Source of the DNA: a virus
Strand: one strand, 5' to 3'
Virus record (IMG/VR): IMGVR_UViG_3300031841_003548
Location: 1-22,511 of that record
Length of the DNA: 22,511 bases
Within the stretch, counting starts at the first letter, position 1; the number at the start of each line of letters is the position of its first letter. Position numbers and translations under genes: made by a program. Positions 8,213 through 21,850 of the stretch are shown one piece after another. The notes beneath the pieces are model-generated. The model ran no database searches. It was not told where the DNA came from and saw only the letters and a program-made list of their open reading frames with translations.

Positions 8213-9124
8213 TTATTGTCTCAATGTCTTGATCCACGGAACCTTATGATCCCAAAAGAACTCATCAATCAAATATTCATGAGTAGTTCTGATAGGGTTA
8301 ATGTCCCAACCACCTCGTCGTACATATAAACATGCTACCATAAGGGATCGCGGTTCAAAAGTATTATTCAATCTAGTGAAAATAGTCTCACATATCTCTT
8401 CGTGAAAATGACATTCATCTCTAAAAGAGATAATATATTTTAACAATTCTTTATCAGATGGATGCTTAGTACCTTCAAGAGAGATAAACACATCACCCCA
8501 GTCAGGTTGAGAGGTAACACGGCAGTTACTCTTAAGTAATGATGACATTACCTTATAAGGTTTATTAGTAGAGTTCAAATGCTTTGTCTCTAACAAGCTA
8601 GCAGTTTCGCTATATACATCTACATAATAACTCTCAGCATCAATCTCATCAGTATTTTCTAATCTCCTATAGTTTTTATCAGTATAAGGATTATCATTAC
8701 TAAATGTATCGCTTGTAGGAAATACAGTTACTCTTACATCAGTGCGAAGATACTTACTCAAGTCTTTTGAGGCTGTTTCTTCTAGATTCTTAACTACCTT
8801 GTCAAATGTATCTCCCATCTTAGTCATATTGAATGTGTTCCAATACAACTTCATAGATTTAGATTCAACGATATACTTACTATCAGAAGGATATACTACT
8901 TTAGCGACCCCACAAACAGGAACACCATTATTAGTTAATGCTGATACCTCGTAACCATTCCATACATCACAACCAATAAAAGGTAAGCTCTTTTCTTTAA
9001 TGCCTAAGTGCTTACGATTACTCGATCGTGGTTCTCTCACTAACAGACTTGCATCATACTCAGATTTATACTGACTAGATTGTCCTAAGTGCTTACTAAT
9101 ATTTTTATTATCTAGTTTTGACAT
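8213..9124 (-). CDS. queF: QueF, NADPH-dependent preQ0 reductase (long type)
   Basis: Reduces the nitrile of 7-cyano-7-deazaguanine (preQ0) to 7-aminomethyl-7-deazaguanine (preQ1) using two NADPH. The 303-residue protein is of the long, two-tunnel-fold-domain (E. coli-like) type, slightly longer than the 282-residue E. coli enzyme. Near the start the conserved pattern LGQSSQYKSEYDASLL then PRSSNR is present. The QueF signature ESKSMKLYWNTFN lies at residues 87-99. The catalytic half carries SNCRVTSQPDWGD with nucleophile Cys201 and Asp208, and FHEEICETIF with His241 and Glu242; YVRRGGWDINP follows. Spacing matches E. coli Cys190, Asp197 and His229, so the enzyme looks intact. I chose the ATG at 9124; the longer frame uses TTG at 9130. 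It overlaps the kinase gene by 17 bases and is last in the operon. In phages QueF usually goes with 7-deazaguanine in DNA. Confidence 0.93.
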   Translation of the reverse strand: MSKLDNKNISKHLGQSSQYKSEYDASLLVREPRSSNRKHLGIKEKSLPFIGCDVWNGYEVSALTNNGVPVCGVAKVVYPSDSKYIVESKSMKLYWNTFNMTKMGDTFDKVVKNLEETASKDLSKYLRTDVRVTVFPTSDTFSNDNPYTDKNYRRLENTDEIDAESYYVDVYSETASLLETKHLNSTNKPYKVMSSLLKSNCRVTSQPDWGDVFISLEGTKHPSDKELLKYIISFRDECHFHEEICETIFTRLNNTFEPRSLMVACLYVRRGGWDINPIRTTHEYLIDEFFWDHKVPWIKTLRQ

Positions 9125-9662
9125 CTTCAATAATCTCTATCATCTTATTATATCTACTCTCTACACTTCCTTCCAGTACATAAATATTAGGATACTTACC
9201 TAATATCAATTCTTCATATAGTTTAATAATTTGACTTCTAAAACTTTCACTCATAGATCTCTCCCCATCATTGATGAGAGGAACATCATAAGGATTAGTA
9301 TAGAAGATACAATCATACCTTTCTATATATCTACCTAAAGCATAACTAAACATTTTATCTACAAACTCATTTACTTTACCTTGCGTTCTAAAATATCTAG
9401 TATAAACAAACCCATCTACTATACAACGATCCAAGATATTGTTCATATCTTTACCACTATAAGTAAACAAATTTTGAATATGGTCAGCAAAAATAGCTAA
9501 CTGCGTATCATTATAGTTTGAACCATCGTCGTTAATCTCAAAACCACCACGACGGATACGCCTAGTAACCTCATCGACTGAGCCCCATGCATTTGACTCT
9601 AAGAATTCGCGCAACAGAGTAGTTTTACCACTACTCTGCGCGCCTGTAAAAGAAACTAACAT
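9108..9662 (-). CDS. P-loop kinase, AAA_28 / NadR-like, probable nucleoside or nucleotide kinase
   Basis: A 184-residue protein with a Walker A P-loop, GAQSSGKTT, at residues 7-15. A DRCIVDGFVYTRYF segment near residue 80-95 is in the place of the substrate-binding/DR(x) motif of NadR-type and AAA_28 kinases. A later ERSMSESFRSQI lid-like stretch is rich in Arg. The length fits these small phosphotransferases, which phosphorylate nicotinamide riboside or other nucleosides. Here the context suggests a modified deoxynucleoside or nucleotide as substrate, but nothing in the sequence shows the specificity. The start codon overlaps the upstream DUF1599 gene's stop as TAATG, and its end overlaps queF by 17 bases, so it is made with the modification enzymes. 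It might instead simply supply dNTPs. Confidence 0.75.
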   Translation of the reverse strand: MLVSFTGAQSSGKTTLLREFLESNAWGSVDEVTRRIRRGGFEINDDGSNYNDTQLAIFADHIQNLFTYSGKDMNNILDRCIVDGFVYTRYFRTQGKVNEFVDKMFSYALGRYIERYDCIFYTNPYDVPLINDGERSMSESFRSQIIKLYEELILGKYPNIYVLEGSVESRYNKMIEIIEDVKTR

Positions 9663-10012
9663 TATTTACCCCAGACCCCATTATCGACTATCTGAGCAAT
9701 TTTGCAATATAAACTTGAATCTTTCCATGCATCTTGAATAGGTTCATTAGCAGCTTCTGCAGTACGTTTCTTAATGATGAGATTAATGAGTCTCTGTACT
9801 TTATCATTAACACGGAATACTAGTCCAGCTTTAGCAACTAAACGGCCATCCGGTTTAGATAAGTCCTGACCTACAGAAATATTAGTAGGGCCATAATCGT
9901 ATTGCTTATTAATAAATAGCTTGTATTCTTCTTCGAGAAGATCTCTCAACATTGCACATGTTTCAGGATAATCATTCTCTACTTCCGCCTTGATTTCAGT
10001 GTAATCTTTCAT
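9662..10012 (-). CDS. DUF1599/Nmad1-type protein (nucleotide modification associated)
   Basis: A 116-residue all-helical protein. The diagnostic stretches are KQYDYGPTNI (about residues 36-45), RVNDKVQRLINL (67-78), then NEPIQDAWKDSSLYCKIAQI (89-108) and a final GVWGK. This is the pattern of DUF1599, which has been grouped as 'nucleotide modification associated domain 1' because it recurs with kinases and base-modifying enzymes in phages. It resembles MazG/NTP-pyrophosphohydrolase-like helical proteins, with several conserved acidic residues (E28, D39, D70, E90) that could bind metal and nucleotide. It could hydrolyse or bind a modified dNTP, but no catalytic activity can be read from sequence. 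The start at 10012 lies inside the end of the formyltransferase gene (17-base overlap) and its stop overlaps the kinase start. Confidence 0.75.
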   Translation of the reverse strand: MKDYTEIKAEVENDYPETCAMLRDLLEEEYKLFINKQYDYGPTNISVGQDLSKPDGRLVAKAGLVFRVNDKVQRLINLIIKKRTAEAANEPIQDAWKDSSLYCKIAQIVDNGVWGK

Positions 10013-10568
10013 TTAAAAAATTTATCCAAAGTTTTGTAGATTCAACATGAAGAGCCTTTTCTAGTTCTTCATATGTATTAAAGTTATTATCTATAATTGC
10101 ATTTGCAACAATAGGACCATCATCGAGCTCAGGCGTTACCTTATGAATAACGCACCCGGCTCGATCATGTCTTGCTTCCCAAGCTTTTTTCTGAGGGTTA
10201 AAGCCTTTTAATTCTGGATAGATATCAATAGCGCCTGGATGACCATTATAGATGTTTGACGATCTAGTAAAGTCTGGAGGTAATATTCTAAGATAACCAT
10301 GAAGAGTGACAAATACATCTTCCTTCCAATCATCATTAAGAATAGAATAACTTAAAGCATCTGCTGCTTTAAGATAATCCATCTCTTTTGGCCATTTAGG
10401 TAATCGTACAAACGGAAGATCCCCAGTTGATCTCTTATATATTAATTCAATATTCGTACCTTTATCTTCTTGTCTATTAGTTACAATAAGATCAGGCCAT
10501 CTTTTGATCTGTTTAGAGATGTTTACAATTTCAGAACCAGTCTGACTATAAAATGCTACCCACTTCAT
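9996..10568 (-). CDS. PurN-like formyltransferase in a modification operon
   Basis: A 190-residue enzyme of the 10-formyl-THF-dependent formyltransferase fold (as in PurN, Fmt, ArnA). The C-terminal half is clear: LHGYLRILPPDF (residues 89-100), then NGHPGAIDIYPELKG (108-122), HDRAGCVIHKVTPELDDGPI and a TYEELEKALHVES helix. The catalytic Asn-His-Asp set of PurN (N106, H108, D144) is preserved as Asn108, His110 and Asp149. The N-terminal half (ending near residue 85) is less conserved and lacks an obvious PurN phosphate-binding GSGSN loop, so glycinamide ribonucleotide is an unlikely substrate. I use the ATG at 10568 because it forms a TAATG overlap with the upstream stop; a TTG at 10574 would be longer. 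In this operon an attractive substrate is the primary amine of preQ1, free or in DNA. This is inference. Confidence 0.85.
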   Translation of the reverse strand: MKWVAFYSQTGSEIVNISKQIKRWPDLIVTNRQEDKGTNIELIYKRSTGDLPFVRLPKWPKEMDYLKAADALSYSILNDDWKEDVFVTLHGYLRILPPDFTRSSNIYNGHPGAIDIYPELKGFNPQKKAWEARHDRAGCVIHKVTPELDDGPIVANAIIDNNFNTYEELEKALHVESTKLWINFLNERLH

Positions 10569-11398
10569 TACCAATATCTTCTTTTAATAATTCTTTTGAA
10601 TTGACTTGTGTTATATAGAATACGCTCTACAGCATCTTCATCAGGCTGTGCACCAATCAAGTCAGCTAACAGCTGTGATGGTTTATGATCTAGTCCAAAG
10701 TCAGCATTATATGTATACCCCAACAACCCAGCAACAACAGGGTTAGATGTATCTAAGCTTCTAATATTATAGATATTATTATCTACATACCATCTAAACT
10801 CACTCGCAAGTGACGCACCTAACAAATGATGAGGTTTATTCCAGTCCCACTCTCCTTCGTCAATTAATCTTTTAACTAGATTCTGACGACCAGTGGCTTG
10901 TCTTTTTAATTTAGCGTTGTTGTCGCATATATGGCTAATACCGGTTACATGATACATGCTAAAATCAAAACTGATAGCAACGTAATCAGCATTACTTCTC
11001 ATAAAGCGATAACAATCTACCACCTCTGACCAAGTTTCGCCTTGAACAGCACCGATTGTCGCTCCTGGTAAATTACCATAATTAGCTCTAAAATCTTTAA
11101 ACTGACTTATTGTTGCCGGTCCGTTTTCAAGAACATCAGGTACAATATAATAATTAGGTTTAATTCCCTCGCACCACATAGCGTATTTGTCTGCATCAAA
11201 CGCCTCTTTAAGTTCAAAAATAGAATTATCTAAGAGAATTTCACCATTAGGTACTTTAGCTCTATATTTTTCTAGAAACCATTCTTTATATTCTTCTTGT
11301 TCTTCCATTAGATGAACTAAACAATATTGATAATCATTGTATTCTACCGATTCTGGTAGAAGAGCTATAGGAGATTCGTGCGATACCTTAATCGTCAT
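10568..11398 (-). CDS. dpdA: DpdA-like DNA guanine transglycosylase (TGT paralogue)
   Basis: A 276-residue TIM-barrel protein of the tRNA-guanine transglycosylase superfamily, best explained as a phage DpdA-type enzyme that swaps guanine in DNA for a 7-deazaguanine. Landmarks appear in TGT order. LLDNS with Asp57 sits where TGT has SDSGG (D102). IVPDV with Asp88 is at the D156-like position, followed by IGAVQG (115-120), like GIVQG. HLLGAS (191-196) is like YLMGVG, and SLDTSNP with Asp216 is at the place of the nucleophile D280. The zinc-binding CxCxxC tail of tRNA TGT is absent and the protein is about 100 residues shorter, as in phage DpdA families. It is the first gene of the operon, starts next to a sigma70-like promoter and overlaps the formyltransferase by one base. 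Identity rests on motif order, not on an alignment. Confidence 0.8.
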   Translation of the reverse strand: MTIKVSHESPIALLPESVEYNDYQYCLVHLMEEQEEYKEWFLEKYRAKVPNGEILLDNSIFELKEAFDADKYAMWCEGIKPNYYIVPDVLENGPATISQFKDFRANYGNLPGATIGAVQGETWSEVVDCYRFMRSNADYVAISFDFSMYHVTGISHICDNNAKLKRQATGRQNLVKRLIDEGEWDWNKPHHLLGASLASEFRWYVDNNIYNIRSLDTSNPVVAGLLGYTYNADFGLDHKPSQLLADLIGAQPDEDAVERILYNTSQFKRIIKRRYW

Positions 11399-14710: not shown

Positions 14711-15133
14711 TTAAGCTACCTTAACATCAATTACTTTAGCTTCTTTACGAGCTTTCCGAGGAATAGTGATACTAAGTACCCCTTCTGAGATAGTAGCATC
14801 AAGCTCCGCACAATTCATCTCATTACTAGGATGAAATGAGCGTGTATATGTTTCTTCTTTCGAACCAGTCTTTGTAGTGATAGTTCGTTTAGCTTCCACA
14901 TAAACGTTATTAGATTCCTCAGAGTAAGTAACCTTGAGGTTTTCTTTCTTCACACCTGGAAGATCAATTTCAATGCGAGCACCATCTTCACTTTCGTTGA
15001 AACGAATATTATCGTTAGAGAATGAAGCTGGAGTAGCAAAGTTGTCTCCAAATGCAGTGTTGAATAAGTCAACGACTGGGCTGACTGACCCCGCCCGAGG
15101 GTTTGTTGTTAAGTAATTAAATAAGTTAGACAT
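14711..15133 (-). CDS. hsp20: Hsp20-family small heat shock protein
   Basis: A 140-residue alpha-crystallin-domain chaperone that holds unfolding proteins and is frequent in T4-like cyanophages and other marine relatives. A short N-terminal arm (to about residue 42) is followed by the crystallin domain: ESEDGARIEIDLPGVKKENL (residues 47-66), VYVEAKRT strand, RSFHPSNEMNCAELDATISE and the hallmark A-x4-GVL as Ala113 to GVL at 118-120 within EGVLSITIPRK. The C-terminal VIDV (134-137) is the I/V-x-I/V tail motif that links dimers into larger assemblies. Length is usual for the family. It is transcribed opposite to the flanking fibre and spike genes from its own perfect late promoter, so it would be made with virion proteins and may assist their folding. 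Confidence 0.95.
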   Translation of the reverse strand: MSNLFNYLTTNPRAGSVSPVVDLFNTAFGDNFATPASFSNDNIRFNESEDGARIEIDLPGVKKENLKVTYSEESNNVYVEAKRTITTKTGSKEETYTRSFHPSNEMNCAELDATISEGVLSITIPRKARKEAKVIDVKVA

Positions 15134-15464: not shown

Positions 15465-16502
15465 ATGGCAGAGGTAAAAAAGGCTAGATTATTTTTACGT
15501 AGAGGAACCGATGTTGACAGACAAGATACGGTTTTGTGTCAAGGTGAACTCGGTTATTCTACTGATGCTTTTAGAGTTTTTGTTGGAGATGGTTCGACCG
15601 AGGGTGGTAAAACACTAGGGTTGATGGCGTTTGTGAGCGCTGGTGCAAACTTTCAGACTAATCTTACAGTTGCTTCTGGATCAGGATTAGCGCATTTCGG
15701 AGACCTAGCTATATTTCCATCATCTAACTATACTGCTGCTGACGGTACTGCAAGAGTGATTGATACCTCACATGCCACAACAGTAATGATACTTACTGGT
15801 ACTAACCCTGCTACATCAAGTCACTGGGTTAATGTTAATAACAATATTCCATTTGGTAATATTTCAGTTTCAGCTGATGATATTTCTGGTAACTATGTAT
15901 CCGGTGGTATTATATCTGCTCCTATTACTTTATCTGGTGGCCCTATTACCCTAGGTGGGGACGATACTAATGAAACATTAGTATTATCTGGAGTAGGATT
16001 GAAGGCAGAAGGCGGGGTAGGTGTACCTACAGGTAAGATTTACCCGCTCGGTATCACTGGTACTGGTGCTGTAACTGCTTTAACCGGTGTTGATAGTTTT
16101 ACCAATAGATCTATTGAGCATAGAACATATTATATCTATACCATGAGACAAACTGGAGTAGATATTTCAAACGCTCTTAATACACACTATGATTCAAATA
16201 CTTTTACCGCGGGTGGTACTACTCCGACATTAAATTTTATGGGGGATTTTTTATCAAATAAATGGCCAACGTCAAAGATAGGAGACACAGTTCAATTACT
16301 GTGGGCAGGGTCTGGTTCGGCTCGGAAAATTAAAAGTTACTTACCCATTTTTATAACTGATTGGTTAGTAGTTAATCTTCAAAGAACTGGAACTAACGCT
16401 AATCAGTGGACTATAATGGATTGGGTCATGACTTCTAGTAGTAGGTCTTACACTACTCGATCGGTGCACAATACAATTGTTGCAGGAAGTGAATCAAACT
16501 AA
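15465..16502 (+). CDS. Tail-fibre-like structural protein
   Basis: A 345-residue protein whose N-terminus carries the module seen on many phage fibre and receptor-binding proteins: LFLRRGTDVDRQDTVLCQGE (residues 9-28) then LGYSTDAFRVFVGDGST with the GDG(S/T)xGG turn. The middle (about 60-210) is rich in Gly, Thr and Ser with short strands (APITLSGGPITLGG and ALTGVDSFTNRSIEHRTYYI), fitting a beta-helical or trimeric shaft. The C-terminal third has KIGDTVQLLWAGSGSARKIK then WLVVNLQRTGTNANQWTIMD, probably a globular tip. It is late-expressed and followed 22 bases on by the oxygenase gene. Receptor binding is inferred; it may equally be a short-tail-fibre or baseplate-whisker component. Confidence 0.65.
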   Translation: MAEVKKARLFLRRGTDVDRQDTVLCQGELGYSTDAFRVFVGDGSTEGGKTLGLMAFVSAGANFQTNLTVASGSGLAHFGDLAIFPSSNYTAADGTARVIDTSHATTVMILTGTNPATSSHWVNVNNNIPFGNISVSADDISGNYVSGGIISAPITLSGGPITLGGDDTNETLVLSGVGLKAEGGVGVPTGKIYPLGITGTGAVTALTGVDSFTNRSIEHRTYYIYTMRQTGVDISNALNTHYDSNTFTAGGTTPTLNFMGDFLSNKWPTSKIGDTVQLLWAGSGSARKIKSYLPIFITDWLVVNLQRTGTNANQWTIMDWVMTSSSRSYTTRSVHNTIVAGSESN

Positions 16503-16524: not shown

Positions 16525-16980
16525 ATGTTACCGGTTGAACAGAATAAGATAAAAAACTCAGCAGAAATTATTTCATATGTTGAGAAAAATAATTTCCGAT
16601 GGGTAGATAGAGACTTAGAAACTAAAATAGGTTACTCGCGTTTTCAAACTCTGTACGGAGATGACATGGATCAGTCTTTAAAAGATTTAATCTTTCAAAA
16701 TTTAAATAAAGAATTAAAAATTATTAATAAATTTGTTCAGATACAAAAATATAACCCCGGTGATTATATTTTACCTCATAAAGATCACGTACAATTAATT
16801 ACAAAACTCCATTTATTTACTCTGACTACTTCTAAAGTAGATGGTCTAACGTGTGAGTATAAAGATAAATTTTATAAAATACCAGATATTGCTGGTCAAT
16901 ATATAGATTTTCCAATGTTTAGCTGGCATTGGGTTAATCCTGTACAAGATAAGCGGTATAGTTTAGTTATTGGAGAGTAG
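16525..16980 (+). CDS. Small 2OG-Fe(II) oxygenase
   Basis: A 151-residue double-stranded beta-helix oxygenase predicted to oxidise an unknown substrate using iron and 2-oxoglutarate. The metal triad is complete: His85-x-Asp87 in LPHKDHV and His135 in MFSWHWVNPV, with Arg144 in KRYSLVIG as the likely 2-oxoglutarate anchor. YNPGDYILPHKD is a typical strand leading into the first ligands. Such compact oxygenases are common in marine T4-like phages, usually near fibre or structural genes, where hydroxylation of a virion protein has been suggested; the substrate is not known. The leader has only a weak TTAGG-like element and no late box, so it is likely translated from the fibre transcript. It is not an obvious DNA-base dioxygenase (no extra TET/JBP elements). 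Confidence 0.85.
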   Translation: MLPVEQNKIKNSAEIISYVEKNNFRWVDRDLETKIGYSRFQTLYGDDMDQSLKDLIFQNLNKELKIINKFVQIQKYNPGDYILPHKDHVQLITKLHLFTLTTSKVDGLTCEYKDKFYKIPDIAGQYIDFPMFSWHWVNPVQDKRYSLVIGE

Positions 16981-16981
16981 C

Positions 16982-16992
16982 TATAAATAATT
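16982..16992 (+). promoter_or_regulatory. T4-late promoter, perfect TATAAATA
   Basis: TATAAATA at 16982-16989, continuing ATT, begins two bases after the oxygenase stop and ends two bases before the ATG at 16995. The predicted transcription start is 16995, exactly the first base of the start codon: the clearest case of a predicted leaderless late mRNA in the window. Confidence 0.65.
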
Positions 16993-16994
16993 TT

Positions 16995-17486
16995 ATGCAT
17001 GCTTTTTTTAAAAAAAGAGACAAAGCTTTTGTAGGTTATTGTGATGACGCCCCTGCGAGTCTCGAGGATGATACATATTTATATAAAGATGTAAAAGATA
17101 CTGACCCTATGTCATTTAAATGGGTCGGAGATTACGATACAGGTAAATTAGTTTCTATCTATTCAAAGGATGTGAAATTAGCTGATTATAGTGATACCTA
17201 TCATGTTTATGAATCTGATATTAAAAAAGAAACAGAAGATCGTATAATTAATACTCACAATTTACCAATACATAAACAGATTAATATAATGTTTGACCAA
17301 ATTAATATTATTTGCGATAAATTAAAAGTTAAAAAATCTAAAGAGTTTTCTAATGCGTCTGAAATTATATCTGCCGAGTTAAAAAACATGAAGAAACAAA
17401 TTAAATTTAATAAAGACAATCCTGATAAATTTAAATTTATAGAAACTAAAAAGTATAATGAGTTTATGACGGACCAGTTTGTTTAA
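16995..17486 (+). CDS. Unknown protein, possible fibre-associated factor
   Basis: A 163-residue Lys/Asp-rich soluble protein without recognised domain. The first half has aromatic, strand-like segments (HAFFKKRDKAFVGYCDDA, MSFKWVGDYDTGKL). The second half is helical: TEDRIINTHNLPIHKQINIM, then FDQINIICDKLKV and AELKNMKKQIKF. The I-x-x-x-[YH]-P-[IL]-x-KQ-x-N pattern is reminiscent of small proteins encoded behind fibre genes and of some fibre-assembly chaperones, but this is too weak to name it. It has its own perfect late promoter. Its stop overlaps the stop of the convergent phosphoribosyltransferase gene by four bases (TTAA shared by both). Confidence 0.55.
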   Translation: MHAFFKKRDKAFVGYCDDAPASLEDDTYLYKDVKDTDPMSFKWVGDYDTGKLVSIYSKDVKLADYSDTYHVYESDIKKETEDRIINTHNLPIHKQINIMFDQINIICDKLKVKKSKEFSNASEIISAELKNMKKQIKFNKDNPDKFKFIETKKYNEFMTDQFV

Positions 17487-17974
17487 ATATTTTCCCACGG
17501 AAAAACGATCCACTCATCATTGTTAAAATTTCTTACTGTATAATTAGGGGTAAATGTAGATTTAGGTTTATAGTATAGTGTTGAATAAACCCATTTATTT
17601 TGTTCTGGTTTTTCCCATGTGACTATAGTATCTATTTGCTTCACTTTGCGGAGAGTCATTCCAGTATCAGCTAAGTCATCTACTACAAGTATTTTTTCTT
17701 CGTCTCTTAAAGTTCCAAAATCTGGAAATGTAATTAGTCTTACTACATCGGTTTCAGAGTGTACCCCATCTCTAGGTTTATCATTTACATACGACTTTAA
17801 ATTCGCAGAAAGTAATTTATCGACTTCAAGGTGTTTAGCTAATAATGTAGCAGGAATCATACCACCGTTCGCAATACCAATAATACAGGTAATGTTTTCT
17901 TTTGATAAGCTATCTGCTAAAGTTTTGCAGTCTTGTTTTATATCTTCCCAAGTTAAAAAAGTCTTTTTACTCAT
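17483..17974 (-). CDS. Phosphoribosyltransferase, purine (XGPRT-like) type
   Basis: A 163-residue type I PRTase. The PRPP-binding signature ILVVDDLADTGMTL is at residues 95-108 with the usual two adjacent acids, and IGIANGGMIPATLLAKHL (33-50) carries the pyrophosphate loop with the non-proline peptide turn. The C-terminal hood has WVYSTLYYKPKS and DEWIVFPWE, which resembles xanthine-guanine and hypoxanthine PRTases, so attachment of a purine base to PRPP is likely. Exact base specificity cannot be read. The start at 17974 overlaps the stop of the small upstream gene as ATGA. Converting guanine or an analogue to a nucleotide could serve purine salvage in the infected cell, or influence the free guanine/preQ pool used by the modification operon; the latter is speculative. 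Confidence 0.85.
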   Translation of the reverse strand: MSKKTFLTWEDIKQDCKTLADSLSKENITCIIGIANGGMIPATLLAKHLEVDKLLSANLKSYVNDKPRDGVHSETDVVRLITFPDFGTLRDEEKILVVDDLADTGMTLRKVKQIDTIVTWEKPEQNKWVYSTLYYKPKSTFTPNYTVRNFNNDEWIVFPWENI

Positions 17975-18138
17975 ATATCGACAATCATCTCTTTACCAAT
18001 ATATTTTACGAGTTCTTTTAATTTTGCAAGCACCTTTATTCTTTCAGCTTCAGACATGGTTTTCGACTCCTTATATATTTGTAATATAAGATCCGGAGTT
18101 ATTTTATGTCTTGATTGTTTTTTTACCCCTCTTGGCAT
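17971..18138 (-). CDS. Small basic helical protein, coupled to the PRTase
   Basis: A 55-residue gene I read directly. It opens MPRGVKKQSRHKITPDLILQ, continues IYKESKTMSEAERIKVLAKL, and ends KELVKYIGKEMIVDI then TGA. A late-type TAAATAATT box lies three bases before its ATG, and its stop overlaps the PRTase start (ATGA), so the two form a two-gene operon. An internal in-frame ATG preceded by AAGGAGTCG (18081-18073) at residue 28 has the best Shine-Dalgarno sequence of this region, so a shorter 28-residue product from the same frame is also possible. The basic N-terminus followed by two amphipathic helices could bind nucleic acid or a partner, but no family is recognised. Confidence 0.65.
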   Translation of the reverse strand: MPRGVKKQSRHKITPDLILQIYKESKTMSEAERIKVLAKLKELVKYIGKEMIVDI

Positions 18139-18141
18139 TAT

Positions 18142-18150
18142 AATTATTTA
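18142..18150 (-). promoter_or_regulatory. Late-type box TAAATAATT for the 55-residue gene and PRTase
   Basis: The minus strand reads TAAATAATT from 18150 to 18142, three bases before the ATG at 18138. The predicted +1 is 18139. It is the only visible promoter for the two-gene operon. Confidence 0.55.
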
Positions 18151-18194
18151 CACTTCTTCTTTTAACTTCAATCTGTTAAATTGGGGTTTATTTG

Positions 18195-18204
18195 TTAAAT
18201 AATT
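18195..18204 (+). promoter_or_regulatory. Late-type box before the giant adhesin
   Basis: TTAAATAATT ends four bases before the ATG at 18209; the core ends at 18201, giving +1 near 18207 and a two-base leader. It faces away from the divergent box at 18142-18150 across 44 bases. Confidence 0.55.
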
Positions 18205-18208
18205 AATA

Positions 18209-21200
18209 ATGGCTAGTTCAGTATATAGTGAAGTAACATCAGTCTCTACCTACGGATACGAAAGAGATCGAGTTTTAGATAAACTTAAAACAGCTAGTAA
18301 GGATTTACCATACAGTGTAGATGATATTACTATCAGTCATAATGATTTCGCTGTCGCAGATGTATATAATGATAGTTTAAGAAAGTTATATAGTAATTAT
18401 TTGTTTCTTATTGCTAATGCTGAAATATCTAGTACGTCAACTCCTTTATCTGCAGCATCAAATTATATTGCAATAAAAACTAACGGGAGTGTTCTTCCTA
18501 CACCAATTGGTCTTACTCCTAATGTCGGGTTAGATCATACTCAAACCCTTTCTGCTTTAGGGGAAACATTTATTATTAGTCAAACAGATGGTACAGGTAA
18601 GCTTTTATATTTTAATTATGCAAAAGATGATTCATTCGTATTTGAAACAAACTCTCATATAACTAACGCAATAGGTTTATTATCTGGTAATGAAATAGAG
18701 TTTAATAAAACGTTTAAATTTAAAGATGTAGTAAGTGTTGATGTAAAAGACAATATTTTATTTGTTTTAGATAAGGGAGCTAATACTGTATATAAATTTG
18801 ATATTACTGGTTTAATAACTAGTGACAAAGGACTCAAGCGTAATAGTGTAACTGATAGTGAAAGACCGGGTCGGTATCTTTTAAAAACAATAGGTGGGGA
18901 AGGAACTAATCAAACTAAAAATAAATTATCAAGCCCCAATTCTTTATCTGTACATGAAAATAGGGTTTATATACTTGACAACGGTCATAATAGTATCAAA
19001 GTATTCGATTTAGACTTTAATTTTATACAAGAGGTAAATTCACCGAGTTTATTCAACAACCCAAATTACGGAGAATTAATGTCTATAATTGTTGATAAAT
19101 ATTCTGATACTTCGGACTTAGCACAAGGTTACGTACTATCTTCTCGTGGTAAGATATTTACATATGATATAATTAACAATGAAATAAAACTGCCGACTTC
19201 TTTATATGATTATTATGATACACGAGTTAATCTTTTATCTGCAACAGACTTAAGTAATTCTTTTAATAAAATAGTTAATTCTAAATTTAATAAGAATATT
19301 TTATATATAAGCAATAAAGGTCGTATATATAAGTATTACAAAACTAATTTTAAAACGTATATTTCTGAACTGGATTTACTTAAACATGGAATAGCTATTG
19401 GCACAGAAGAGGATCAAAAAGAAATACTTTCTTTTGATACAACATTACATAATGGTAAAGAGTATATTGCAGTAACTACGACAAATTATCCTGACCAAGA
19501 AGTATCAACCTATGTTTTCTTAGACGATCACGCTACTACGAAACTATATCATGAGAATTTTTATACTAATTATTTTAGTTTATCTAATATTTTAGTATTA
19601 CCGCAAGAAATAGTTAATAATGTTACTTTTAATAAAACTACAAAAAAATTAATTTATAATCATTATTCATTTTTTGAAAATTTAAATAAAAAGATATACA
19701 GTAGTTATAGTACTGTTGCTGGACTAGCACCGTTTCCAACACTGAGTGCAATTGTACCTCATGAGTTTACAAAACCTCAAGCCTTAGAAGAGAATCATAA
19801 CTTGTATATAGGTGTAAATGAGCCGCTTCTCACGGATGTAATTAACAGACCATTACGATTATTGTTTGCCCAGCAAGAAGCTCTATTTGACTTAATTAAA
19901 GAAGAATCATTAAATTCTAATCCTCCAGCAGATTATACTATTCATTTACCAGGTGATATCACTCAATTTCCTAATGTTGTTGAATTTAAAAACTCCTCTA
20001 CTAGTGTAGATTCTGGTTCTAGTATAGAGGTAGAAGTAACTCGCACTAATATATTAACTGGGGCTCCAGCATGTAGTTTTCAATATTATACAGTTACTGG
20101 GACAGCGACTAAAAACGACTATTATCATATAGAATCTACAAATCCTGCTATAGGCAAATTTACTAAAAATGTTGATTCGATTACTATACCGATAGATACT
20201 GAATTACTATATGGCTCAGGAACAAAAAGTTTTAGTATAGTATTAAAGTCAAACACTAATTGTATTATTGGAAATAAAAATACACACACCATAAATATGT
20301 CTCTTAGACAACCAGCATATACTATTTCTTTATCTGCTAGTGATGGTAATTTATCAGAAGAGGATACAGCTCGAGTAGAAGTAAAACGAGTACCTACCTC
20401 TGGAACAGATATATTAACCGCAGGGGATACTTCAGTTAATATATCAATAGATCCATCAAACATTGTTAATAATAACTATAGACCTAACGTATCATTTAGC
20501 ACAATATATTCTGTAGTAGACGATAAGTTAACAGATTTCCCTCTTGTAAGACCCGCTCAAACTTCAGCAGCAAAAGTAAACAGCACTAGTACTATATTTT
20601 TTACTGATACAATTACATCAGTTATATTTGATTTAAGCGCAGCGAACACTCCTACTGCGACGTATACTGGTACAAAATTAACTGTTAAACTAAATAACCC
20701 AAGTAAAAATTCTACTTTAGGTAATATTTCAGAACAAGTTTTTAGAGTTGCTGATAATTTTAAAACTACAAACTTGTTCTTGTCTTCTATTTCTGCAACA
20801 TATCGAGCTGATGGAACGAGTAATGAATTGTTATCTTGTGTTAATATTTGGGAAGCTTTATCAGCTAGCACTGCTGAGAATAATGGTACTGCTTTTTCTA
20901 CCTTCTCAGCAACTAATCCGTATATAATTAATTTTACAGTACAGGAACCTCTTTCTATTTTCTCAGTAGATGTATTGTCCGCAGCCCTACAATTTATACC
21001 AGATCATGACTTGGTTTTTCCAAATAATGAAATGAATATTATAGTTGATGAAGGAGCTGGTGTGGTAGGTAAAGGAGGTAAAGGTGGTTATGGTGCGTTG
21101 TATCTATCAGGAACAGACTTAACACAAAGTGGCTCTGAAGATGATGATGTATCTATATATTATGATGACCTTAATCCTTTAGTTGATGGTGGTCCGGCAA

Positions 21201-21850
21201 TAGGTAATATAGACATGAGTAGATTTTTTCTAGATATTAATATAAAAAATTACGGTCATGTATTTGGAGGAGCTGGTGGTGGTGGTGGTGGTGTGGTAGG
21301 GGTCTCAGCAAGTACTATGGAACATCTCACGTCATTATCTGCTGGTTGTGGTGGAGGAGGTGGCGCTGGTATCCATATTATGAATGTAGGCACCGGTGGT
21401 CTTGCAGCAGTGTCAGGAAAATCTACAAATGAGGAAGTTTCCTCTGCTGAAGTCGATGATACTGTTTATAGTCAACATCCTCTTTTTGCTGATATTTTTC
21501 TTTCTAATGGTAGCGATGGTGCAGTAAACGGTGCTGGTGGTTCTGGAGGAGCCTTTACTAATGCTGCTGGTGCTGTATCTTTACAACCAACTGGAAGTGT
21601 TAATATTAGCGCATTTCCAAGTATGAGTGGTTTAGATGGAGGCCAACTCGGAGAAGATGGAGGTTCCGATAGCGAAACAGTAGCTATATTACCAGGAGAT
21701 GGTCATGATGCAGGTAGTAGTTTTTCTACCGTAAGTAGTGAGTATAGTGTCCGGCGTGGTGGTACAACAGGTGGTATTTTTTCTACCATGGGTAGTAACA
21801 TATTAAGCTCTGGTAGTACAGGTACATTCAGAGGGCCATTAATGTCCTAG
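18209..21850 (+). CDS. Giant fibre/adhesin: propeller, Calx-beta-like and glycine-rich tip
   Basis: A 1213-residue virion protein, probably a tail fibre or host-recognition adhesin. The N-terminal ~100 residues contain HNDFAVADVYNDSLRKLYSN, a likely attachment domain. From about residue 165 to 440 there are NHL/beta-propeller-like blades, for example DVKDNILFVLDKGANTVYKF and then LSVHENRVYILDNGHNSIKV. Around 589-700 and again 704-845 lie beta-sandwich units resembling Calx-beta repeats (SSIEVEVTR, EEDTARVEVKR). The last ~265 residues are glycine-rich with runs such as GGAGGGGGGVVG, GCGGGGGAGIHIM and GGAGGSGGAF separated by variable loops, the composition of polyglycine-II tips such as the gp38 adhesin of S16-like phages. 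No transmembrane segment is seen. It has a late-type promoter and is followed by a Clp ATPase gene. Confidence 0.75.
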   Translation: MASSVYSEVTSVSTYGYERDRVLDKLKTASKDLPYSVDDITISHNDFAVADVYNDSLRKLYSNYLFLIANAEISSTSTPLSAASNYIAIKTNGSVLPTPIGLTPNVGLDHTQTLSALGETFIISQTDGTGKLLYFNYAKDDSFVFETNSHITNAIGLLSGNEIEFNKTFKFKDVVSVDVKDNILFVLDKGANTVYKFDITGLITSDKGLKRNSVTDSERPGRYLLKTIGGEGTNQTKNKLSSPNSLSVHENRVYILDNGHNSIKVFDLDFNFIQEVNSPSLFNNPNYGELMSIIVDKYSDTSDLAQGYVLSSRGKIFTYDIINNEIKLPTSLYDYYDTRVNLLSATDLSNSFNKIVNSKFNKNILYISNKGRIYKYYKTNFKTYISELDLLKHGIAIGTEEDQKEILSFDTTLHNGKEYIAVTTTNYPDQEVSTYVFLDDHATTKLYHENFYTNYFSLSNILVLPQEIVNNVTFNKTTKKLIYNHYSFFENLNKKIYSSYSTVAGLAPFPTLSAIVPHEFTKPQALEENHNLYIGVNEPLLTDVINRPLRLLFAQQEALFDLIKEESLNSNPPADYTIHLPGDITQFPNVVEFKNSSTSVDSGSSIEVEVTRTNILTGAPACSFQYYTVTGTATKNDYYHIESTNPAIGKFTKNVDSITIPIDTELLYGSGTKSFSIVLKSNTNCIIGNKNTHTINMSLRQPAYTISLSASDGNLSEEDTARVEVKRVPTSGTDILTAGDTSVNISIDPSNIVNNNYRPNVSFSTIYSVVDDKLTDFPLVRPAQTSAAKVNSTSTIFFTDTITSVIFDLSAANTPTATYTGTKLTVKLNNPSKNSTLGNISEQVFRVADNFKTTNLFLSSISATYRADGTSNELLSCVNIWEALSASTAENNGTAFSTFSATNPYIINFTVQEPLSIFSVDVLSAALQFIPDHDLVFPNNEMNIIVDEGAGVVGKGGKGGYGALYLSGTDLTQSGSEDDDVSIYYDDLNPLVDGGPAIGNIDMSRFFLDINIKNYGHVFGGAGGGGGGVVGVSASTMEHLTSLSAGCGGGGGAGIHIMNVGTGGLAAVSGKSTNEEVSSAEVDDTVYSQHPLFADIFLSNGSDGAVNGAGGSGGAFTNAAGAVSLQPTGSVNISAFPSMSGLDGGQLGEDGGSDSETVAILPGDGHDAGSSFSTVSSEYSVRRGGTTGGIFSTMGSNILSSGSTGTFRGPLMS

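Follow-up and report, generated by a model that had tools for sequence, protein, structure and literature searches.

The stretch of DNA analyzed here (the window) comprises all 22,511 nucleotides of the 22.5 kb virus record IMGVR_UViG_3300031841_003548 in IMG/VR and carries recognizable genes of a T4-like myovirus. The structural genes include those for a gp15-like sheath stabilizer, the portal gp20, a head–tail adaptor, a head closure protein, the gp21 protease, the gp23 capsid protein, and a gp5-like hub. The identity of the capsid protein to cyanophage gp23 is about 33% at most, a tblastn search with the hub protein against 50,697 phage records gave no matches, and the lineage is, by sequence, distant from cultured phages. 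An open reading frame (ORF) exactly at 18209 to 21850 (+) encodes a composite protein of 1213 amino acids, termed adhesin in the following, which in a marine T4-like phage likely serves as a one-chain receptor-binding protein (Table 1). The gene order, conserved in relatives spanning the region, is hub, Hsp20-like gene, orf78, Mtd_N protein, phosphoribosyltransferase, adhesin, and Clp ATPase.

Many relatives of adhesin were found in IMG/VR contigs. All complete full-length relatives found (about 20 contigs) have a single architecture in common, in which propeller and tip always occur together, and in a relative contig of 200.8 kb one copy of the gene is present and no separate PF05268 gp38 was found. 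Comparison of the protein with PHROGs gave no match. Likewise, neither the complete protein nor the tip alone gave a tblastn match in the 50,697 phage records, although the BLAST low-complexity filter may hide Gly-rich ones. A search of four related contigs for a T7-type tail-fibre N-terminal domain was negative. The sole short relative, at 898–2424 of contig L162, ends at 509 amino acids, before the sandwiches and the tip, and may reflect misassembly or a disrupted gene.

Table 1. Features of the adhesin ORF, with positions in the window.
Feature	Position	Strand	Basis
Whole ORF, composite adhesin, 1213 amino acids	18209..21850	+	ORF call; homologues of same architecture
N-terminal head, residues 1–80, most conserved (71–84% identity); putative virion attachment	18209..18448	+	Identity among relatives
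Six-bladed NHL-type beta-propeller (predicted), residues ~81–445	18449..19543	+	Pfam NHL just below cut-off; AF2; VIA Z 23
Linker, residues ~446–585, predicted helices, 58–84% identity, low model confidence	19544..19963	+	AF2, identity
Calx-beta sandwich (predicted), residues ~586–702	19964..20314	+	AF2 and structure matches
Second, less certain beta-sandwich, residues ~703–855	20315..20773	+	AF2 and structure matches
Region collinear with the part of gp38 preceding its first Gly motif (S16: beta-helix), residues ~856–953, low model confidence	20774..21067	+	Profile alignments
gp38-type Gly-rich tip, residues 954–1213, ten Gly motifs, five variable loops	21068..21847	+	Profile comparison, motif placement
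Gly motif 1, GKGGKGG	21068..21088	+	Motif placement
Gly motif 2, DGGPA	21185..21199	+	Motif placement
Gly motif 3, GGAGGGGGG, counterpart of S16 gp38 151–158	21266..21292	+	Profile alignment, motif placement
Gly motif 4, GCGGGGGAG	21344..21370	+	Motif placement
Gly motif 5, GTGG	21389..21400	+	Motif placement
Gly motif 6, NGSDG	21506..21520	+	Motif placement
Gly motif 7, GAGGSGG	21530..21550	+	Motif placement
Gly motif 8, GLDGGQ	21629..21646	+	Motif placement
Gly motif 9, GEDGG	21650..21664	+	Motif placement
Gly motif 10, RGGTTGG	21755..21775	+	Motif placement

A Gly-rich C-terminus of about 265 residues with variable loops had been described in a first-pass annotation of the window, and this description held. 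Glycine makes up 59 of the 264 residues from 950 to 1213 (22%) and 42 of the 949 preceding ones (4%); in 2000 shuffles of the whole protein, windows of 264 residues reached a maximum of 39 Gly. The Gly residues form ten motifs between residues 954 and 1189, separated by variable segments. Ten polyglycine-II segments are likewise present in gp38 of phage S16 (structure described in PMC6851490; segment positions in PMC13243192), and the motifs of adhesin can be assigned in matching order. In a comparison of 12 relatives, the gaps from even to odd motifs, where proximal turns are expected, are nearly fixed at 18–22, 6, 3, and 1 residues (gp38: 19, 1, 2, and 2), whereas those from odd to even motifs, where distal loops are expected, vary over 28–61, 17–22, 20–35, 18–36, and 23–35 residues (gp38: 1–2, 7–12, 3–8, 6–10, and 3–10). 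The gp38 fold predicts this alternation, and the data might have contradicted it; at the sequence level, the outcome is supportive.

The kinship with gp38 was further addressed by profile comparisons, using an alignment of S16 gp38 and nine further gp38 proteins. With hhalign, the tip matched the gp38 family with an E-value of 3.8e-5 (probability 71%; 73% for a global alignment of 207 columns), and S16 gp38 alone with an E-value of 0.0015. None of 300 shuffled gp38 alignments (by column or by block) scored as high, nor did the reversed alignment, and the nearest were 15-column block shuffles (best probability 65%). In addition, viral contigs were scanned with the pattern IxNxGx[IVM]xGG[GA]GGG, which yielded 121 ORF matches; 103 of these, leaving out the family of adhesin itself, were combined into a bridging profile, whose links carry the caveat that its members were picked by the shared motif. 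In HMMER, this profile gave 72 bits for S16 gp38 and 39 bits for the window, compared to 23 for the best decoy, and in hhalign the bridging superfamily reached E-values of 8e-23 to gp38 and 9.8e-13 to the adhesin family. Pfam GP38 (PF05268) gave no match above cut-off for the protein, the tip, or in four related contigs, PF21721 (Gp38_N) did not match adhesin, and a search of PDB sequences with a tip profile (hmmsearch) found nothing. On these profile comparisons, it is strongly supported that the tip belongs to a gp38 superfamily wider than PF05268. From this kinship with gp38, we infer that the tip contains polyglycine-II helices.

The chain was modeled with AlphaFold2 (AF2), using 11 aligned sequences for the propeller region and 12 relatives for residues 590–1213. 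Residues ~85–440 form an all-beta propeller with predicted local distance difference test (pLDDT) values mostly of 75–93, and its best PDB matches in Foldseek and VIA are the six-bladed NHL propellers of Brat, Thin, and TRIM71 (VIA Z 22–23 for residues 77–443, root-mean-square deviation (rmsd) 3.1–3.8 over about 265 residues). Pfam recognized a single NHL repeat, at 19.8 bits against a cut-off of 20. Within the limits of a predicted structure, the propeller is confirmed as six-bladed with NHL-type blades. The same applies to the Calx-beta fold of the first sandwich (residues ~590–702, pLDDT ~90), which in the model matches NCX1 CBD1 and integrin beta4 Calx-beta with a Z of 16 and an rmsd of 1.4–1.7. 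Ca-binding CBD domains typically carry an acidic cluster; in the window, the usually acidic stretch reads GSGTKSF, and such a cluster was not evident when read by eye. The second sandwich (residues ~703–855) is a lower-confidence model, and a tandem alignment with NCX CBD12 was obtained only at high rmsd. Together with the tip profile (E 3.8e-5), these matches bear out the anatomy of propeller, Calx-beta sandwiches, and gp38-type Gly-rich tip proposed in the first-pass annotation.

NHL and Calx-beta domains are common among cellular proteins, which also provide the best matches to the folds of the propeller and the sandwiches, as would be expected if the phage had acquired a secreted or cell-surface host-like protein that does not belong to the particle. 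We regard this origin as highly improbable: a signal peptide is not evident by eye, the gene adjoins tail genes in the relatives spanning the region, and the tip falls into a viral tip superfamily.

Compared to the related contigs L011 and L014, adhesin shows 60% protein identity, the Clp product 99%, and the Hsp20-like protein 100%. DNA identity to these contigs is about 76% over 17492 to 20091, followed by 65% or unalignable sequence through the tip; it is largely lost past residue ~630 and returns at 94% from 21848, at the stop codon. Among four close pairs of relatives, residue differences amount to 18–30% in the distal loops, 2–18% in the Gly core, and 1–6% in the head. Loops differ more than the core in three of the four pairs, broadly the variability among close relatives that had been anticipated. 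As the tip loops change fastest, the protein is probably used by the phage for host recognition. The divergence pattern is consistent with phages exchanging tip alleles, as one would expect for a gene that sets host range.

Distal loops of gp38 decide the receptor in T-even phages (PMC12892980), and hypervariable segments of Gly-rich adhesins track host range in haloarchaeal viruses (PMC8651126). In adhesin, the conserved N-terminal head would attach to the tail or baseplate, with the propeller and sandwiches forming an arm, and the tip may fold as a gp38-like polyglycine sandwich presenting five long distal loops, which would contact the host surface and set the host range. Recombination may swap tip alleles between close phages.

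Several observations weigh against a receptor-binding protein of this type. The homology to gp38 rests on one block and the order of the motifs, since direct similarity falls to background when the shared INxGxIxGGGGGGG block is dropped, and the window scores only 1.8 bits once the motif is masked. The gap pattern is supportive but not blind, because the motif limits were set with gp38 in view. From residue ~860 on, tip included, pLDDT is mostly below 50 and the AF2 model is unusable; the Foldseek and VIA rows are limited to the propeller and sandwiches and are therefore uninformative on the fold of the tip. Given the lack of a confident AF2 topology, adhesin could be a structural component of the tail or baseplate that ends in a Gly-rich tip domain with a fold other than that of gp38, e.g., TNF-like plus Gly-rich as in gp24 of phage Pam3. 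This is unlikely in our view, as the match to Pam3 gp24 spans only 16 columns with an E-value of 0.087, compared to 0.0015 for S16 gp38 and 3.8e-5 for the gp38 family, and the ten motifs and their gap pattern follow gp38.

The divergence data also contain points on the contrary side. In the pair L014/L012, loops and core are equally different. Nearly all domains have a ratio of nonsynonymous to synonymous substitution rates (dN/dS) below 1, with a 23-codon tail in one pair as the exception, and these ratios do not show positive selection. The synonymous rate (dS) is raised across the tip as well. Recombination, not positive selection, therefore accounts for much of the divergence. These rates would also suit a variable tip that serves as decoration or shield instead of binding a receptor and that diverged by hitch-hiking recombination. 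However, the changes concentrate in the counterparts of the gp38 receptor-binding loops (PMC12892980) and are fewer in the Gly core, and the gene position beside tail genes is constant, which makes such a role very unlikely. In addition, the Mtd_N protein, encoded by a second variable gene of the window, may be the true host-range determinant.

The Mtd_N (major tropism determinant) head lies in the protein encoded at 15465–16502 (+). Its C-terminal part shows no DNA-level alignment with near relatives whose upstream identity is about 85% or higher, which makes this gene a second candidate for determining host range. A 2OG-Fe(II)-oxygenase-like gene and orf163 (16525–17486 (+)) follow 3' of it only in the window and in L019; in other relatives, genes at this position are missing or replaced by different small ORFs. 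A gene for an Hsp20-type small heat-shock protein adjoins the hub gene (14711–15133 (−)). Metabolic genes, i.e., GTP cyclohydrolase, a thymidylate-kinase-like gene, and a weak PurN-like match, occupy 8213–11398 (−), on the opposite strand in the capsid–tail interval. Directly downstream of adhesin in relatives, a 794-amino-acid ClpA/B-like ATPase and the large subunit of ribonucleotide reductase are encoded (L014, 6965–12553).

Adhesin shares with S16 gp38 (PDB 6F45), T2/PP01 gp38, and PF05268 the ten Gly motifs in order and an INxGxI strand followed by a long Gly run. In both gp38 and adhesin, variable loops of the tip alternate with fixed turns, and the gp38 tip decides the receptor in known phages. 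In contrast, gp38 is a separate protein of about 250 amino acids with a helical N-terminal domain (PF21721) capping the gp37 trimer, whereas the tip of adhesin ends a chain of 1213 amino acids, and its loops span 17–61 residues compared to 1–12 in gp38. The first-pass annotation had concluded that a single polypeptide would be a different design, which was too strong: one-chain designs have precedents in Pam3 gp24, PHROG 11439, and PF05268 matches inside several viral ORFs of 655–1329 amino acids, and novelty appears confined to the particular shaft and the long loops. Gp24 of the Pseudanabaena myocyanophage Pam3 (PF21722, Gly_rich_2; PMC9608196) is likewise a single-chain fibre with a Gly-rich lattice end and a variable tip. 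Its structure is solved, and it differs from adhesin in its size of 280 amino acids, TNF-like base, helical trimer stem, and requirement for the chaperone gp25, and there is little direct sequence similarity. The tail fibre proteins of PHROG 11439 (775 amino acids) and similar viral ORFs also bear a gp38-like tip at the C-terminus of a long chain. Two adhesin-family members match the PHROG 11439 profile weakly (best E 3.6e-4), but its N-terminal two thirds are unrelated, and the NHL propeller and Calx-beta were unmatched in the examples scanned. Gly-rich, T-even-like adhesins with hypervariable segments are also known from Hafunaviridae, which infect haloarchaea (PMC8651126), where, compared by description only, they are encoded by separate genes.

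Among 96 complete ORFs carrying the pattern, 16 exceed 400 amino acids and have the motif within their final 250 residues, including two adhesin-family members (L046 and L112) and one duplicate pair (L039 and L111). A 1329-amino-acid ORF (L120, 6819–10805 (−)) shows an unusual gp38-type position, with the GP38 domain (E 4e-13) near the N-terminus and DUF7483 at the C-terminus.

No combination of NHL propeller, Calx-beta, and gp38-type tip was found within the literature covered, and an NHL propeller and Calx-beta shaft with a gp38-type long-loop tip appears to be undescribed. Taken to its full extent, the reading of adhesin as a receptor-binding protein would make it a complete tail fibre in one gene of an uncultured marine T4-like lineage, with an NHL propeller/Calx-beta arm in place of gp34–37 and a gp38-type polyglycine sandwich as scaffold for exchangeable host-recognition loops several times the length of those in the gp38 proteins compared; we consider this plausible, if on balance somewhat doubtful. 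In uncultured marine T4-like phages, most host-range proteins go unrecognized because they have no family match. If the proposed role is true, adhesin would offer a marker gene along with defined loops from which the hosts of such phages could be predicted, and the gp38-type tip would be a module set on very different shafts.
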